Shown here piece by piece: positions 1,998 through 47,300 of a DNA stretch of 64,000 nt (position 1 is its first letter; the number at the start of each line of letters is the position of its first letter). Source of the stretch: Desulfurivibrio dismutans. Lineage in GTDB: Bacteria; Desulfobacterota; Desulfobulbia; Desulfobulbales; Desulfurivibrionaceae. Made by a program: the position numbers and the translations under genes. Below the pieces are notes generated by a model that did no database searches, had not been told where the DNA came from, and worked only from the letters and a program-made list of their open reading frames with translations. The DNA is taken from the NCBI RefSeq assembly GCF_029210385.1, contig NZ_JARGDQ010000002.1, positions 124,001 through 188,000 on the forward strand. The letters run 5' to 3'.

Positions 1998-3974
1998 ATG
2001 GAACAGAGCCAACTGAATTGGATCGCCAACTTCATCTGGGGCATCGCCGACGATGTCCTGCGGGATCTCTACGTTCGCGGCAAGTACCGCGACGTCATCC
2101 TGCCGATGACCGTCCTGCGCCGCCTCGATGCGGTGCTAGAACCAACCAAACAGGCCGTCATCGACATGAAGGCCTCCCTCGATCAGGCCAAGATCGTGCA
2201 CCAGGACCAGGCCTTGCGTCTGGCGGCGGGCCAGGCCTTCTACAACACCTCGAAATTCACCCTGCGCGACCTACGGGCGCGCGCCAGCCAGCAGCAGCTC
2301 AAGGCCGACTTCGAGGCCTACCTGGACGGCTTCTCGCCGAATGTCCAGGACATCCTCGAGAATTTCGAGTTCCGCAACCAGATCCCGCGCCTCTCGAAGG
2401 CCGACGCCCTCGGCACCCTGATCGAGAAGCTGCTCTCGCCGGACATCAACCTCAGCCCCAACCCGGTGCCGAACGGCAACGGCTCTGTGAAGCACCCAGG
2501 CCTCGACAACCACGGCATGGGTACGGTCTTCGAGGAACTGGTCCGGCGGTTCAACGAGGAGAACAATGAGGAGGCCGGCGAGCACTGGACCCCGCGCGAC
2601 GCTGTGAAGCTCATGGCCAAGTTGATCTTCCTGCCGGTCGCCGACGAGATCGACTCCGGCACTTACCTCCTTTACGACGGCGCCTGTGGCACCGGCGGCA
2701 TGCTCACCGTTGCCGAAGAGACGCTTAAGGAGCTCGCCACGGCGCACGGCAAGGAGGTGGCCACGCATCTCTATGGGCAGGAGATCAACGCTGAGACCTA
2801 CGCCATCTGCAAGGCGGACCTCTTGCTCAAGGGCGAAGGCGACGCGGCGGACAACATCGTCGGCGGCCCGGAGCATTCGACGCTGGCGAACGACGCCTTC
2901 CCCTCGCACGAGTTCGACTTCATGCTCTCCAACCCGCCCTACGGCAAGAGCTGGAAGAGCGATCTCGAACGCATGGGCGGCAAGGGCGGCGTCAAAGACC
3001 CACGCTTCGTGATCGAGCACGAGGACAATCCCGAGTATTCGCTGCTTACCCGCTCCAGCGACGGCCAGATGCTCTTTTTGGCCAACATGCTCAGCAAGAT
3101 GAAGCGTGACACCAAGCTCGGCAGTCGCATCGCCGAGGTGCACAACGGCAGCTCGCTCTTCACCGGCGACGCCGGCCAGGGCGAGAGCAATATCCGCCGC
3201 TGGATGATCGAAAACGACTGGCTCGAGGCCATCGTCGCTCTGCCGCTCAACATGTTCTATAACACTGGCATCGCCACCTACATCTGGGTGCTCACCAACC
3301 GCAAACCCGAACACCGCCAGGGCCGAGTGCAGCTCATCGACGCCACCCATTGGTTCAAGCCGCTGCGCAAGAACATGGGCAAGAAGAACTGCGAACTCGC
3401 CGACGAGGACATCCGCCGCATCTGCGACACCTTCCTCGCCTTCGAGGAGACCGAGCAGTCGAAGATCTTTCCCAACGCCGCCCTCGGCTACTGGAAGGTG
3501 ACCGTCGAGCGGCCTCTGCGCCTCAAGGGCATCGACCCGGAGCGCGCCCACGCCGCCAAGGAGATCAAGGCACTCAAGGAGACCGCCGAGCGCGGCGACG
3601 ACGCACCTCCGGTCATCAAAAAGATCCACAAGAAGGGCGCCGCCCCTGACCCGCTGCGCGGCCTGTTCGCGGCCACCATTGACGGCAAGCCTGCGGTGGT
3701 CGAGTACGAGCCCGATCCCGACCTGCGCGACACCGAGCAGGTGCCGCTGCTGGAAGAAGGCGGCATTGAGGCCTTCCTGCGCCGCGAGGTGCTGCCCTAC
3801 GCCAAGGACGCCTGGTATGTGCCCGACAGCGTCAAGACCGGCTACGAGGTGAGCTTCACGCGCTATTTCTACAAACCGCAGCCGCTGCGCACGCTGGAGG
3901 AGATCAGGGCCGACATACTCGCCATCGAAAAGGAAGCCGGAGGGCTGCTGGGCGACATAATTGGAGGAAGTTAG
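1998..3974 (+). CDS. hsdM: Type I restriction-modification methyltransferase subunit HsdM
   Basis: This is a 658-residue N6-adenine DNA methyltransferase, the modification subunit that works with HsdS to methylate the recognition site. An HsdM N-terminal helical domain covers roughly residues 8-150. The SAM-binding motif I reads YDGACGTGGML near residue 226, and the catalytic motif IV NPPY lies near residue 311. A C-terminal extension (about 520-658) resembles long HsdM variants that contact HsdS. The ATG is preceded by a short purine-rich sequence (gcggag). It is the first gene of a tight operon; the next gene starts 2 bp after its stop, with a good Shine-Dalgarno (ggagg at 3962) inside the hsdM end. 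Base composition is GC-rich, like hsdR and unlike the two genes in between. Family assignment is secure; recognition sequence cannot be predicted. Confidence 0.95.
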   Translation: MEQSQLNWIANFIWGIADDVLRDLYVRGKYRDVILPMTVLRRLDAVLEPTKQAVIDMKASLDQAKIVHQDQALRLAAGQAFYNTSKFTLRDLRARASQQQLKADFEAYLDGFSPNVQDILENFEFRNQIPRLSKADALGTLIEKLLSPDINLSPNPVPNGNGSVKHPGLDNHGMGTVFEELVRRFNEENNEEAGEHWTPRDAVKLMAKLIFLPVADEIDSGTYLLYDGACGTGGMLTVAEETLKELATAHGKEVATHLYGQEINAETYAICKADLLLKGEGDAADNIVGGPEHSTLANDAFPSHEFDFMLSNPPYGKSWKSDLERMGGKGGVKDPRFVIEHEDNPEYSLLTRSSDGQMLFLANMLSKMKRDTKLGSRIAEVHNGSSLFTGDAGQGESNIRRWMIENDWLEAIVALPLNMFYNTGIATYIWVLTNRKPEHRQGRVQLIDATHWFKPLRKNMGKKNCELADEDIRRICDTFLAFEETEQSKIFPNAALGYWKVTVERPLRLKGIDPERAHAAKEIKALKETAERGDDAPPVIKKIHKKGAAPDPLRGLFAATIDGKPAVVEYEPDPDLRDTEQVPLLEEGGIEAFLRREVLPYAKDAWYVPDSVKTGYEVSFTRYFYKPQPLRTLEEIRADILAIEKEAGGLLGDIIGGS

Positions 3975-41544: not shown

Positions 41545-44157
41545 CTAGCGGAACCAGCGTAGGCGCAAGGTGTTCAGCACCACCGAAATGGAGCTGAAGG
41601 CCATGGCGGCGGCGGCCAGCATGGGGTTCAGAATAATGCCCCAGATGGGGTAGAGCGCCCCGGCCGCCACCGGGATCAGCACGATGTTGTAAAAAAAGGC
41701 CCAGAACAGGTTCTGCCGGATCATCCGCATGGTGGCACGGGAGAGCCGGATGGCGGTGGGCACGCCGCCCAAATCGCCGGAAATCAGGGTGATGTCGCCG
41801 GCCTCCATGGCCACGTCGGTGCCGGTGCCGATGGCAATACCCACATCGGCCCGGGCCAGGGCCGGGGCATCGTTGATCCCGTCGCCCACCATGGCCACCA
41901 CCCTGCCCTCGTCCTGCAGATTTTTGACCGCCTTTTCTTTGTCCTCGGGCAGCACCTCGGCCAGTACCCGGTCGATACCCACCTTGGCGGCAATGGCTTG
42001 GGCGGTGTGGCGGGCATCGCCGGTGAGCATCACCACCTCCAGGCCCATTTCCCGCATCTTGGCAATGGCCCTCGCCGATGATTCCTTGACCGGGTCGGCC
42101 ACCGCCAGCAATCCGGCAAACCGGTTATCCACCGCCACCAGCACTGGGGTTTTGCCCTGGCCGGCCAACTCCCCGGCTCTCTCCCGCCAGCCCGGCTCCA
42201 GCGTCACCCCTTCCCGTTGCAGCAGCCGGGCATTGCCCACCAACAGGTGGCGGCCGGCCACCGTGGCCTGCAGGCCATGGCCGGGCACGGCGGTGAAATC
42301 GCTTACCGCCGCCAACTCCAGGTCGCGCTCCACCGCCGCCCGGACCACGGCTTCACCCAACGGGTGTTCCGAGGCCTGCTCCACCGCCGCCACCAGGGCC
42401 AGTAGCCGATTTTCGCCGCCGGCCGAGGTCTCATCCCGGTCGGCCGCCGGGGCGGCAAATTCCCCCGCCGGCAGGATATCGGTCATCGCCGGGGTGCCGG
42501 CGGTGATGGTGCCGGTCTTGTCCAACACCACGGTGTTTAGCTTGTGGGCCAGCTCCAAGGATTCGGCTCCCTTGATCAGAATGCCGTTTTCCGCCCCCTT
42601 GCCGGTGCCCACCATGATCGCCGTGGGAGTGGCCAGCCCCAGGGCGCAGGGGCAGGCGATGATCAACACCGCGATAAAGACGGTGAGGGCGAAGATCAGC
42701 GATGGTTCGGGGCCGAAAGCCCACCAGAACAAGGCGCTGACGGTGGCGGTGAGGATCACCGCCGGCACGAACCAGGCGGCGATCTGGTCCACCAGCTTCT
42801 GCACCGGCGCCTTGGAGCCCTGGGCCGCCTCCACCAGGCGGATGATCTGGGCCAGCATGGTGTCCTTGCCCACCTTGGTGGCCCGCATCCGGAAGCTGCC
42901 GCTCTTGTTGATGGTGGCCCCGATCACCTGGTCGCCGGGCTGTTTGCTCACCGGCAGGCTCTCGCCGGTGAGCATGGCCTCGTCGATACTGGAGCGGCCC
43001 TCGATGATCTCGCCGTCCACCGGGATTTTTTCACCGGGCCGCACCAGGATGACATCACCCGTCTGAACCTCTTCAATGGGGATGTCGAGCACGGTTTCCG
43101 CCCCGGCCGGAGCGGCGGAATCCCCGGCGGCCGGAGCGGCGGAATCCCCGGCGGCCGGAGCCGACGACGCTGTCGCCGGCTGGGCCGATGGGGCCGTCTC
43201 CACCGCAGCCGAGGACGACGGGACGGCGGGAAACGAAGCCAGCGCGGCCGGTTCCCCCGCCGCCGGCAGCTCGCAGGCCGCGCCGTCTTCGCCCAACCCG
43301 CAGGCCGGTCCGGCGGCATCGTCCCCGGCGGCCGCCGTAGCCGACGCGGCCGGGCGCACCACCCGGGCGGTCTTGGCCTTGAGCCCCATGAGCTTGCGCA
43401 TGGCCTCGGAGGTCTTGCCCTTGGCCCGGGCCTCAAGCAGACGGCCTAGCAGGATCAGGGTGGTGATCACCGTCGCCACGTCGTAGTAAAGCTGGTAGGG
43501 AAAGCCAAGATTGGTGAGGAAAGTCGGCGCCACGGTCATGGCAGCGGAGTAGAACCAGGCCGAGCTGGTGCCCATGGCCACCAGCACGTTCATGTCGCTG
43601 GTGCCGTGGCTCAGCGAGGCCCAGGCGCCCCGATAGAAACGCCAACCGGAAAAAAACTGCACCGGAGTGGTGAGCAGCAACAGGGTATAGGGGTTGCCCA
43701 GCCAGGCCGGCACCACCACCAACGCCCAGTCGTGCAGGCCCATGGGGACCATCTCCGGCAGGCTGCCGTACAGCACCACGGTGGTCAGCAAGGCGGCTAT
43801 GGAGAAATCAATTTTAAGCCGCCGCAGGGCCCGGGCCCGCTCTTCCCGTTCCCGGTCCACCGCCGCCGCGTCCTGCTCGGCGGGGGCGGCCTTAAATCCC
43901 AGGGATTCGATGGCCGCCATCAACTCTCCGGTGGTGACCTGCGCCGGATTGTAATCAATGTATGCCTTTTCCGCCGCCAGGTTGACCCTGGCGGCAAGCA
44001 CCCCTTCGTGGCGGGAAACCACCTTTTCAATGCGGGCCACGCAGGAGGCGCAGCTCATGCCGGAGATTTTCAACTCCAGGCGGTCCGGGGTTGCTTTGGG
44101 GTCTTTAAGAACGGTTTTTTTCAAGGTTTGATGCTCCGACGGGCCCAGCGCCATCAT
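41545..44157 (-). CDS. copA: Copper-translocating P-type ATPase (CopA)
   Basis: An 870-residue P1B-type ATPase that exports Cu(I) to the periplasm. One HMA domain with GMSCASC lies at residues 33-39. Transmembrane metal site is CPC in [13 protein letters not shown] near residue 500; the phosphorylation motif DKTGTITAG is near 543; the hinge [26 protein letters not shown] is near 756. The family is usually ~750-800 residues with one HMA; here about 90 residues rich in Ala/Pro/Ser (roughly 264-354) are inserted between the second membrane pair and the actuator domain, containing an exact 24-bp tandem duplication. Start MMAL; both ATGs follow a GGTGGAAAA ribosome site that lies inside a leader hairpin. 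Repeat A3 follows its stop. Confidence 0.93.
43106..43153 (-). repeat. 24-bp tandem duplication inside copA
   Basis: Two exact copies of a 24-bp unit (43106-43129 and 43130-43153) encode the repeated peptide AAPAAGDS-like segment of the low-complexity insert. A third partial copy begins at 43154. In-frame expansion of this kind changes linker length without breaking the protein. Confidence 0.9.
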
Positions 44158-44213
44158 TTTTCCACCACGGATAACAGTGACCTCACCTGTCGTCTGAGGT
44201 CCGTGGCGGAAAA
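44158..44213 (-). promoter_or_regulatory. Hairpin in the copA leader that covers its ribosome-binding site
   Basis: TTTTCCACCACGGA (44158-44171) pairs with TCCGTGGCGGAAAA (44200-44213) at 13 of 14 positions; an inner CCTCA/TGAGG stem extends it. On the copA mRNA the 3' arm includes the GGUGG Shine-Dalgarno and stops one base before the first AUG, so folding would hide the start site. This could be a translational switch or part of an operator. Confidence 0.6.
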
Positions 44214-44342
44214 GGATTAAGCACCGGTATATTAATGGAAATCACCGGTAAAGTTTTCTAAGATAATGTAAGATACCGTATGATACATAATTGTTCTTCA
44301 TTTTAAAACCTCTCACCCGGTCACGGTTCATCATTCACCAGC

Positions 44343-47300
44343 ATGCCCACCCGCCTTTTTACCATAAGCGCGATTTTACTCGCGCTGCTGCTGTTGCTGG
44401 CCGCCGGCCTTTACGCCCTCCGGGCGGAGGTGATCGGCCCGCGCCTGCTGGCCGCCGCCAACACCTATCTGGGCCCGGCTCTGGGGGTTGAACTGGCGGC
44501 CGGCAAGGTCGGGGGAAACTACCTTAACTCATTAATTTTAAAAGATATTTACACCGTAAAAAAAGTTGCTGCCGACGGCGAGTTACCAGCCTTCCAGCCG
44601 GAACTGGAGGCCCGGCAACTGCGCCTGCGCTATCAACTGCCGGCCCTGCGCCATGGGACAGAAGCCTTTCTGGCCACCCTCCGAATCGAACTGAGCCGGG
44701 GCCGCCTGACCCTGCAGCTGCCGCCCGGAGCCGAAGTCGACTCCGAAAAAACAGCGGCCCTGCCCGAAGCGGCGGAACTCCAGCAACTGTTTGCTACCAT
44801 CGTCGAACTGGCCGCCCTACTGCCGGCCATCAGCCTGGATCGGGTTGATTTGCGGCTGCAAAGCCAAGACCTTGCCCTGGCGGCCAACGACCTTGCCCTG
44901 AGCTTTTCTCCGGCAACCGACCCCGCCAAGGATACCTCCCGGCTCACCCTGCAAAGTGGGTCCTTCAGTCTGCAACATCCCCGGCTGCAGCTTCTGCAGG
45001 CCCCGCTGGCACTGGAACTGCAGGCCGGCGGCGACAAACAGGACGGCAGCCTCACCATCTCCCGACTGGAATGGCAAAACCTGCTGGCGGTCAGCACCGG
45101 CCGCCTCTCCTGGTCGGAACCACCCGCCGGCGAAGTCAACTTATACGACCCGCTGAATCAACCGGCTCAAGCCATCCCTGAGCTCGACCTTGAAGTGCAA
45201 CTGCAGCTTCTGGAGACGGCATTGCATGGGCGGGCAACCCTGACTCCGGACCACTGGCGTGGCGAGCTGGCCACCGGTTCCTTCAACCTCGCCCGACTGG
45301 CCGAGTTCTGGTTTGAACCACCCCGGTTGAGCGGTAAAGTCACGCTCGCCAGCCGCCTTGAGATGGCCCCCGCCGCCCCTTGGGAAACCCTGAGCGGTGA
45401 GCTGGAGCTGCAGCTTGCACAGGGAGCGGTGGCGGAACATCGGCTGGACGACCTGGAGCTGCAGGCCCGCTTCCGGCAAGGTGAACTGCAGTTGGCCCGG
45501 TTGACCGCCGGCCTGGCGGACAACCGGCTGGAGTTGGCACAACTGCACCTGCCTTTGCCGGCCCTGCTTGCAGCCGACCTTAAACAGTTGCTGCACCGGA
45601 GCCGGCTGGCGGAGTTACGGCTCGATTTTCGCAACCTGCCCGAACTGCTCAATGCCGCCGGCCTGGAGGCAGCGACCCTGATCCCGGCGCCATTTTTGGA
45701 GCTGACCCGGCAGCAACTTCAACTGCAGGCCGGCCTGGAACACGGCCTCCTGCAGGTCCGGGAGTTAAACCTGATCAACGATACCGGCCGCCTCACCATC
45801 CCCCGGGCGGTCATCGGCCCCTGGCCACCAGATGATGATTATTGGCAACTTCCGGTGGAGGGTGAGGCGCACCTGGAAATCAGCAACCTGGGTGAATTCA
45901 CCCGCCGCTGGCAATTACCCGCCCTGAGCGGCCGGCTGCAGGGCGAACTGGCCGTGCAGGGCATCCCGTCCGATCCTCGAGGTTTTGTTATCCTGGAAGC
46001 CGCCGATCTCCGCCGACCGGGTCTGGAACTGGATCACCTGCAGCTCACCCTGCGGGGCGACCGCCAGCAGTTGCACCTGGAACGTCTGCACCTGAAACAC
46101 GACACCGATTACTTTCAGGCCGGCCTGACGGTTGACCCCTCTCCCCTGCTGGAGGCGGTGCTGGCCAAAGAACCGATCGCCGCCACTGCCGAGGGAAGCG
46201 AAGGGAAGAAACCCAGCCCCGCGATCAACCTGGAAAAACTGCTGGCCGCCCTTAACTGGGAAAACCTGCAGGTTTCTTTTAACTTCGCCGACCTGGCCGC
46301 ATACCACGAACTGCTGCCGCCAGCCTGGCACACCGGCGGCCGGCTGCAGGGCGAACTCAGCGGCGACGGCACCCTGGAACAGCCCCGCCTGACCGCCAAC
46401 CTGCAGCTTTACGACCTGCAGCTGCCGGCCGGTGACCGGCCGGCGCCGTGGCCCAAGCTGGATCAGGTAACGGCCGACCTGCAACTGGCGGAGCAGCAGT
46501 TGCAGGTTAAGCAGTTTTCCGTCCGGCGCCACCATGACCGGCTTCAGGTAGCCGGCCGGCTCCGGCTGCCCGGCTATCGCCTGCCGGAATTGCCGGAACC
46601 TGCCGCCATGGAGTTGCAGGAATTAGAAATTACTCTTGCGGTGTCGGAACTGGCCGCCTATGCCGATTTGCTGCCACCGCCGTTGCAACCGGCAGTCCCC
46701 CCGGCGCCGCTGCCGATTGCAACCGGAGAAGAACCAGCAGCCGAAGCCGGAACTGCCCCGCCGGCCGGCCGCGGCCTGGATGGCGCCCTGACCGCCCGGG
46801 TCCAGGGCGGCGGCACCCTGACCGACCATGCTTTCACCGCCACGGCCGAACTTACCCGAGGCCGGCTGGCGGATTTCCGCCTGCAGAGCTTTAGCGGGCA
46901 GGCTGAATTCCGCCTGCCGGGGGGTGATCCGGGCGCCTTGCAGTTGACCGGCTCCTTTCAGGCCCAAGAGCTTTACCGCCAGGCCGATCTCCTGGTTCGG
47001 GAACTCAGCAGTGACTTAGGCTATACCGCCGGCCGCCTCACCGTTACACGGGGGAAGGCGAGCAACGACCAGGGCCGATTGCGGATGGGGGGCGAAATGC
47101 ATGGTCTGGGGACCGAAACTCTGACCTTGCATTTCAACCAGCTGGAGCTTGCCACCGATGATTTAACCCTGATTCTGGCCGCCCCGGCCAGGCTGCATTT
47201 TTCCGGCGGCCGGCTGCATGACGCCGAACTGGAAATGACGGGGCTGGGCGCCTACCTCCATCTCCAGGGCGGCTATGACCCCAACGCTCCCGGCGCCGAA

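Follow-up and report, generated by a model that had tools for sequence, protein, structure and literature searches.

A 56-nt stem-loop, lineage-specific among the genomes searched, lies directly before ATG 44157 of the copper ATPase gene copA in the window (the whole 64,000-nt stretch of DNA that was analysed). The dyad is real, and it is unusual, not extreme, compared with the start sites of its own genome. The most likely reading, held tentatively, is that of a leader hairpin that passively damps initiation at this ATG, and protein alignments with a congener point to an in-frame TTG at 44124 as an alternative start of copA, with weak codon statistics in favour of the ATG.

Structure and rarity of the hairpin before copA

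The features of the region are as follows.

41545–44157 (− strand): copA, copper-translocating P1B-type ATPase, 870 amino acids if the start is ATG 44157.
44122–44124 (− strand): TTG, alternative start, in register with the ATG of the congener G001 in protein and pairwise DNA alignments.
44134–44137 (− strand): GGAG, alternative Shine–Dalgarno sequence for TTG 44124, −5.8 kcal/mol, outside the hairpin.
44152–44157 (− strand): ATG ATG, tandem candidate starts, with a weak coding signal right after them (+2.3 bits over nine codons).
44158–44213 (− strand): leader hairpin, with a 14-bp outer stem (5′ arm 44213–44200, 3′ arm 44171–44158) and an inner 5-bp CCUCA/UGAGG pairing, from repeat search and folding.
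44162–44166 (− strand): GGUGG in the 3′ arm, possible Shine–Dalgarno sequence for ATG 44157/44154, duplex energy about −6.0 kcal/mol.
44219–44250 (− strand): a pair of ACCGGT copies spaced by 21 nt in the proximal leader, a possible weak hairpin or operator from folding and repeat search.
44270–44318 (− strand): promoter-like block that aligns with the congeners G001 and G002, with −35-like TTTAAA (44307–44302) and −10-like TATCAT (44285–44280).

The copA product matches TIGR01511 (604.6 bits) and TIGR01525 (649.6 bits), both above cut-off, and contains HMA and E1-E2_ATPase domains. Upstream of the gene lies a divergent TamB-like gene whose start is at 44343; next to that one is an Omp85-family gene. 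A copA of this kind is present in 4 of the 5 genus genomes, its own included; the fifth genome is 77% complete.

At residues 275–350 (approximately), encoded at about 43108–43335 of the window (− strand), CopA contains a stretch rich in Ala and Pro that spans up to about 76 residues and includes short tandem repeats. This stretch is largely missing in CopA of G002, the match to which is interrupted between residues 274 and 351. Among the matches listed for CopA (41545–44157), the first six belong to Bacillaceae-type species, judged alkaliphilic from their names, at 63–64% (best segment), with Desulforamulus at 65% lower down, compared with 52–58% in relatives of the same family or order. The pattern hints at horizontal transfer.

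The inverted repeat consists of two 14-nt arms (44158–44171 and 44200–44213) that are 93% complementary and 28 nt apart. On the copA strand all 14 positions of the outer stem pair, 13 as Watson–Crick pairs and one as G–U; this single imperfect pair is a mismatch on the + strand. The 3′ arm, which contains GGUGG, ends directly at ATG 44157. The inner CCTCA/TGAGG pairing forms in the centroid structure and is absent from the minimum-energy structure. The 14-bp stem with an inner extension described in the first-pass annotation was thus confirmed by repeat search and folding, the extension in the centroid structure only.

The exact 59-nt hairpin piece, selected for its stem before the comparison with shuffles, has a folding energy of −28.1 kcal/mol compared with a shuffle mean of −14.0 (z −4.68; none of 200 shuffles as good), and the deviation shrinks in longer pieces (84 nt, z −3.19, 1 of 200 shuffles; 149 nt, z −2.96, 2 of 200). 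A helix of at least 14 bp was found in 0 of 6,000 dinucleotide shuffles of the 59-mer and in 0 of 3,000 shuffles of the 120-nt leader. Under lax rules, the 64-kb window contains 17 helices of at least 12 bp per strand, the copA hairpin counted. In 445 kb of the same genome, a helix of at least 14 bp occurs at 2 of 327 crude start sites (the copA hairpin counted); this background is rough, each open frame being taken to start at its earliest possible codon. In fold energy the hairpin, itself counted, ranks seventh among these 327 sites and sixth among the 194 whose upstream DNA is non-coding. A 17-bp stem at L160 8073–8131 (− strand), directly before and including a crude TTG start, may be the terminator of the upstream gene or mark a wrong start.

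Start codon and ribosome-site accessibility

The first-pass annotation placed the stem over the 56 bases before the first copA codon and assigned GGUGG in its 3′ arm as the Shine–Dalgarno sequence. Both assignments stand, the second by sequence and predicted pairing, if translation begins at ATG 44157, but neither would apply if the in-frame TTG 44124 is the start, which has its own GGAG upstream and outside the hairpin. The two candidate Shine–Dalgarno sequences pair nearly equally well (−6.0 kcal/mol for GGUGG versus −5.8 for GGAG, with an assumed anti-Shine–Dalgarno sequence), and ATG is a commoner start codon than TTG.

In BLASTP and MAFFT comparisons of the N-terminal 100 residues, Met1 of the G001 protein corresponds to residue 12 of the CopA studied here, which is encoded by TTG 44124 (LKKTVLK versus MKTPVLK). 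In a four-way MAFFT protein alignment the first Met of each protein slid to column 1, while K13 and VLK keep the TTG register. The sequence TCGGAGC precedes both TTG 44124 and the G001 start. In G001 a TAG lying 27 nt before the start closes the frame, and the interval holds a TTG but no ATG. A pairwise DNA alignment agrees with the TTG 44124 register, its anchored extension score being reached by 4 of 20,000 shuffles, with the anchor picked after the alignment had been seen; the unanchored DNA match at TTG 44124 scores 18, below the shuffle maximum of 26, and a three-way DNA MAFFT alignment pairs this TTG with an inner G001 codon instead. The first possible start of the G004 copA is likewise a TTG, following AGGAGG. 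The nine codons from ATG 44154 to TTG 44124 score +2.3 bits as coding, the best of the three frames. This measure is weak, because the next ten codons after TTG 44124, which are coding on either reading, score −3.64. The G001 protein and pairwise DNA alignments, the shared TCGGAGC and the closed G001 frame favour TTG 44124 as the copA start; the unanchored DNA score and the three-way DNA alignment speak against it, the codon statistics weakly favour ATG, and both codons are candidates. If TTG 44124 is the start, the hairpin leaves the Shine–Dalgarno sequence uncovered.

By predicted accessibility, the region before ATG 44157 is among the most closed of 261 crude starts, 7 of which (probably counting this one) have values at or below its own, and the region before TTG 44124 lies close to the median (136 of 261). 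When a shorter transcript ending at 44120 is modelled, GGAG is largely taken up in pairing (unpaired fraction 0.14 at 37 °C). The predicted unpaired fraction of GGUGG is 0.000–0.003 from 10 to 80 °C, corresponding to more than 99% pairing.

Promoter-like block, relatives and regulators

The alignment of the three leaders (its own, G001 and G002) is marked by a prominent promoter-like block, extending from 44318 to about 44270, with a −10-like TATCAT/TATTAT. A BLAST search with this block retrieved G002 (E 4.8e-6) and not G001, so that the match is significant in G002 only; the same search gave no match in G004. The promoter scan found 1 site, compared with 0.4 expected in shuffles. A promoter upstream of the copA hairpin is likely, not proven, and from its position we infer a transcription start near 44273 and a leader of about 116 nt. 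Since the hairpin follows this promoter-like block, with which two congeners align, it is probably part of the copA mRNA. Transcription starting inside or below the hairpin, which the first-pass annotation named as evidence against a leader structure, is thus not what the block suggests, its start position being read from sequence. The G002 leader has one ACCGGT, at a place matching the 44219–44250 region. A terminator was considered and rejected: on both strands the stem lacks a U-run after it, and the terminator scan returned zero.

Downstream of the promoter block, up to the coding sequence, the three leaders diverge in both sequence and length, and the 56-nt hairpin is absent from the aligned leaders of G001 and G002; there is also none in G004. 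In G002 the leader measures about 27 nt when counted from the putative transcription start, and copA is read as beginning MKEAKTATDRLEL. G001, whose protein begins MKTPVLK, has another leader with a different, promoter-proximal hairpin. That leader (L114, about 2420–2490) contains GGAGGAG, a 14-codon short frame (MSTRYPGVMNMTTQ, read by eye) and the hairpin, of −15.2 kcal/mol. It was rejected as a conserved counterpart, as it is nearer the promoter, leaves the copA Shine–Dalgarno sequence uncovered and scores only 18 in similarity to the 3′ arm studied here (shuffles of two related though non-identical stretches reached 26).

Among 58 genomes the hairpin turned up in one, its own, both by DNA search at E ≤ 0.001 and with a covariance model at E ≤ 0.1 under strict filters; the model was built from one sequence and reaches near relatives only. 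Run on nine sources, the covariance model recovered this hairpin, detected on each strand, and a further two matches at chance level, and the stem pattern occurs once in its own genome. In loci of CopA homologues the longest helix in the last 56 nt is 11 bp, with a crude start settable in 58 of 80 loci; these starts are rough, and the frame may belong to another gene in loci whose match starts elsewhere than at 3001. A search of the whole window against Rfam at the gathering score gave three tRNAs only; in the leader, at E up to 10, it gave two below-cut-off C/D box matches at 44280–44338, outside the hairpin, and no metal riboswitch family. A mobile or repeated element was also rejected: the exact 21-mer has no matches in viral contigs, there is no phage match, and the one plasmid match is at chance level (31% covered, E 0.9). 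The conservation of the stem with compensatory changes that the first-pass annotation proposed as a check was not borne out in this small sample, with no homologous stem in G001 or G002 and none in the 57 other genomes; a lack of structural conservation is also what that annotation had named as a ground for refutation.

CsoR (PF02583) was found in none of the 5 genus genomes, 3 of which are at least 90% complete, in a search whose control was positive in 6 of 14 genomes. MerR_1 proteins are present in 4 of the 5, and its own genome has two matches, one strong and one weak (L131). The strong one has a single cysteine, near the N terminus, and CueR carries a C-terminal cysteine pair; judged by sequence, this protein does not have the look of CueR, and no CueR was recognised, the strong one of the two MerR_1 proteins being the one judged.

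Competing readings and known systems

In the reading that we prefer, the 56 nt would form a stem-loop inside the transcribed 5′ leader of copA, apparently too stable for a thermometer and with no recognisable sensor domain. The hairpin would passively keep the ribosome-binding site of ATG 44157/44154 closed, and copA translation would consequently be low and fixed, or would proceed chiefly from TTG 44124, served by the GGAG before it. The hairpin may influence mRNA stability as well, and any copper control of copA would be exerted elsewhere, for example at the promoter. The stable hairpin, the closed ATG site, the evidence for TTG, the alignment of the promoter block in leaders from which the hairpin is absent the lack of a match in 57 other genomes and the absence of an Rfam family all count for passive damping, tentatively the most likely reading. 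Counting against it are the commoner use of ATG as a start, the slight coding signal after ATG 44154, the weaknesses of the DNA match at the TTG, the pairing of GGAG in the shorter transcript, the exact abutment of the hairpin on the ATG and a wobble confined to the copA strand, which would suit selection at the mRNA level. Without any selected function, the hairpin could also be the by-product of a small insertion or template switch in a fast-changing leader. The variation of the three leaders in length and sequence below the promoter block and the 17 helices of at least 12 bp per strand in the window (copA hairpin counted) are consistent with such an origin, but few starts are directly preceded by a 14-bp helix (2 of 327 crude ones, this hairpin counted; 0 of 6,000 shuffles), and we consider such an origin rather unlikely.

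The translational switch on copper export proposed in the first-pass annotation agrees with the identity of copA as a copper P1B ATPase, with a probably transcribed hairpin and with predicted pairing of GGUGG, but no relative searched has the hairpin. An actively opened version, starting at ATG 44157/44154 with the ribosome-binding site blocked by the hairpin and freed by a copper-dependent factor or an upstream ribosome, has a rather low probability. It draws on the full predicted pairing of GGUGG in a stem that abuts the ATG, a ribosome-binding site among the least accessible (7 of 261), the weak coding signal after the ATG and a comparable copper-controlled hairpin over a ribosome-binding site described in PMC9973294. 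It is opposed by the absence of the hairpin from both congeners with an aligned promoter block and from 57 other genomes, and by a leader that, read by eye, has no ATG past the putative transcription start and a longest GTG frame of about 20 codons lacking a Shine–Dalgarno sequence. With CsoR not found and CueR not recognised, it seems quite improbable that a newly acquired hairpin gates translation from ATG 44157 and has to be opened actively, through a copper-responsive protein or a ribosome translating a short leader frame; a recent gain of a real switch is still conceivable, because only two leaders with the promoter block were compared. The alternative of a CueR/CsoR operator fares poorly in its CsoR part, CsoR having been found in none of the five genus genomes; in its CueR part no such regulator was recognised, on the strong MerR_1 protein only, and the dyad lies downstream of the promoter-like site, outside the −35/−10 spacer. 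More generally, the inverted 14-bp arms within the divergent intergenic region, 42 bp apart from start to start (about four helical turns), could be half-sites for a regulator of copA or tamB. This is quite improbable: the arms lie about 60–115 nt downstream of the putative transcription start, they are missing from both aligned congener leaders, neither regulator was seen (CsoR in 0 of 5 genus genomes; CueR in its own genome, the strong MerR_1 judged), and arm copies with at most one mismatch in its own genome, both arms included, number 9, compared with 9 for a reversed-pattern control. The thermosensor also suggested in the first-pass annotation is disfavoured, and an RNA thermometer governing copper export is extremely improbable: the ribosome-binding site of ATG 44157 is paired at every temperature modelled, and a thermometer upstream of the czcD zinc exporter gene in Campylobacter is described in PMC7592916, but predicted pairing of GGUGG never falls below 99% up to 80 °C.

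Among the open-access titles and abstract openings listed on copA leader riboswitches, copA thermometers and Desulfurivibrio copper or CopA, none describes this copA leader. Should the hairpin control translation, it would add to the examples of copper regulation after transcription, in a genus whose five genomes gave no CsoR-family repressor. For now its main value is cautionary: a conspicuous hairpin next to an ATG may be confined to one lineage, and the apparent start of the gene may be wrong.

Three published systems offer comparisons. The Campylobacter jejuni czcD thermometer (PMC7592916) resembles copA, read from ATG 44157, in that a leader structure masks the ribosome-binding site of a metal exporter gene, whereas predictions keep the copA stem closed up to 80 °C. 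In Bordetella pertussis, CruR (bp2923) exerts post-transcriptional copper control through a DUF2946 upstream frame and Rho-dependent termination (PMC9426467); the likeness to copA would lie in such control from an upstream region, but no DUF2946 frame was seen in the copA leader. On the copA strand the leader has no open reading frame of at least 80 amino acids for a DUF2946-like protein and, by eye, no ATG, and the next upstream gene is the divergent TamB-like one. No CutF-like leader protein fits, because the leader has no ATG and only the GTG frame of about 20 codons lacking a Shine–Dalgarno sequence. In the CutF–cutO system of Rhodobacter capsulatus (PMC9973294), a stem-loop shields the Shine–Dalgarno sequence of a copper-tolerance gene, and an exported copper-binding upstream protein controls its opening. 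The copA leader differs in its putative length of about 116 nt, in encoding no DUF2946/CutF protein, in having a P1B ATPase as its target and in lacking a conserved counterpart; what it would share with CutF–cutO, if ATG 44157 is the start, is a stem-loop predicted to lie over the Shine–Dalgarno sequence of a copper-tolerance gene.
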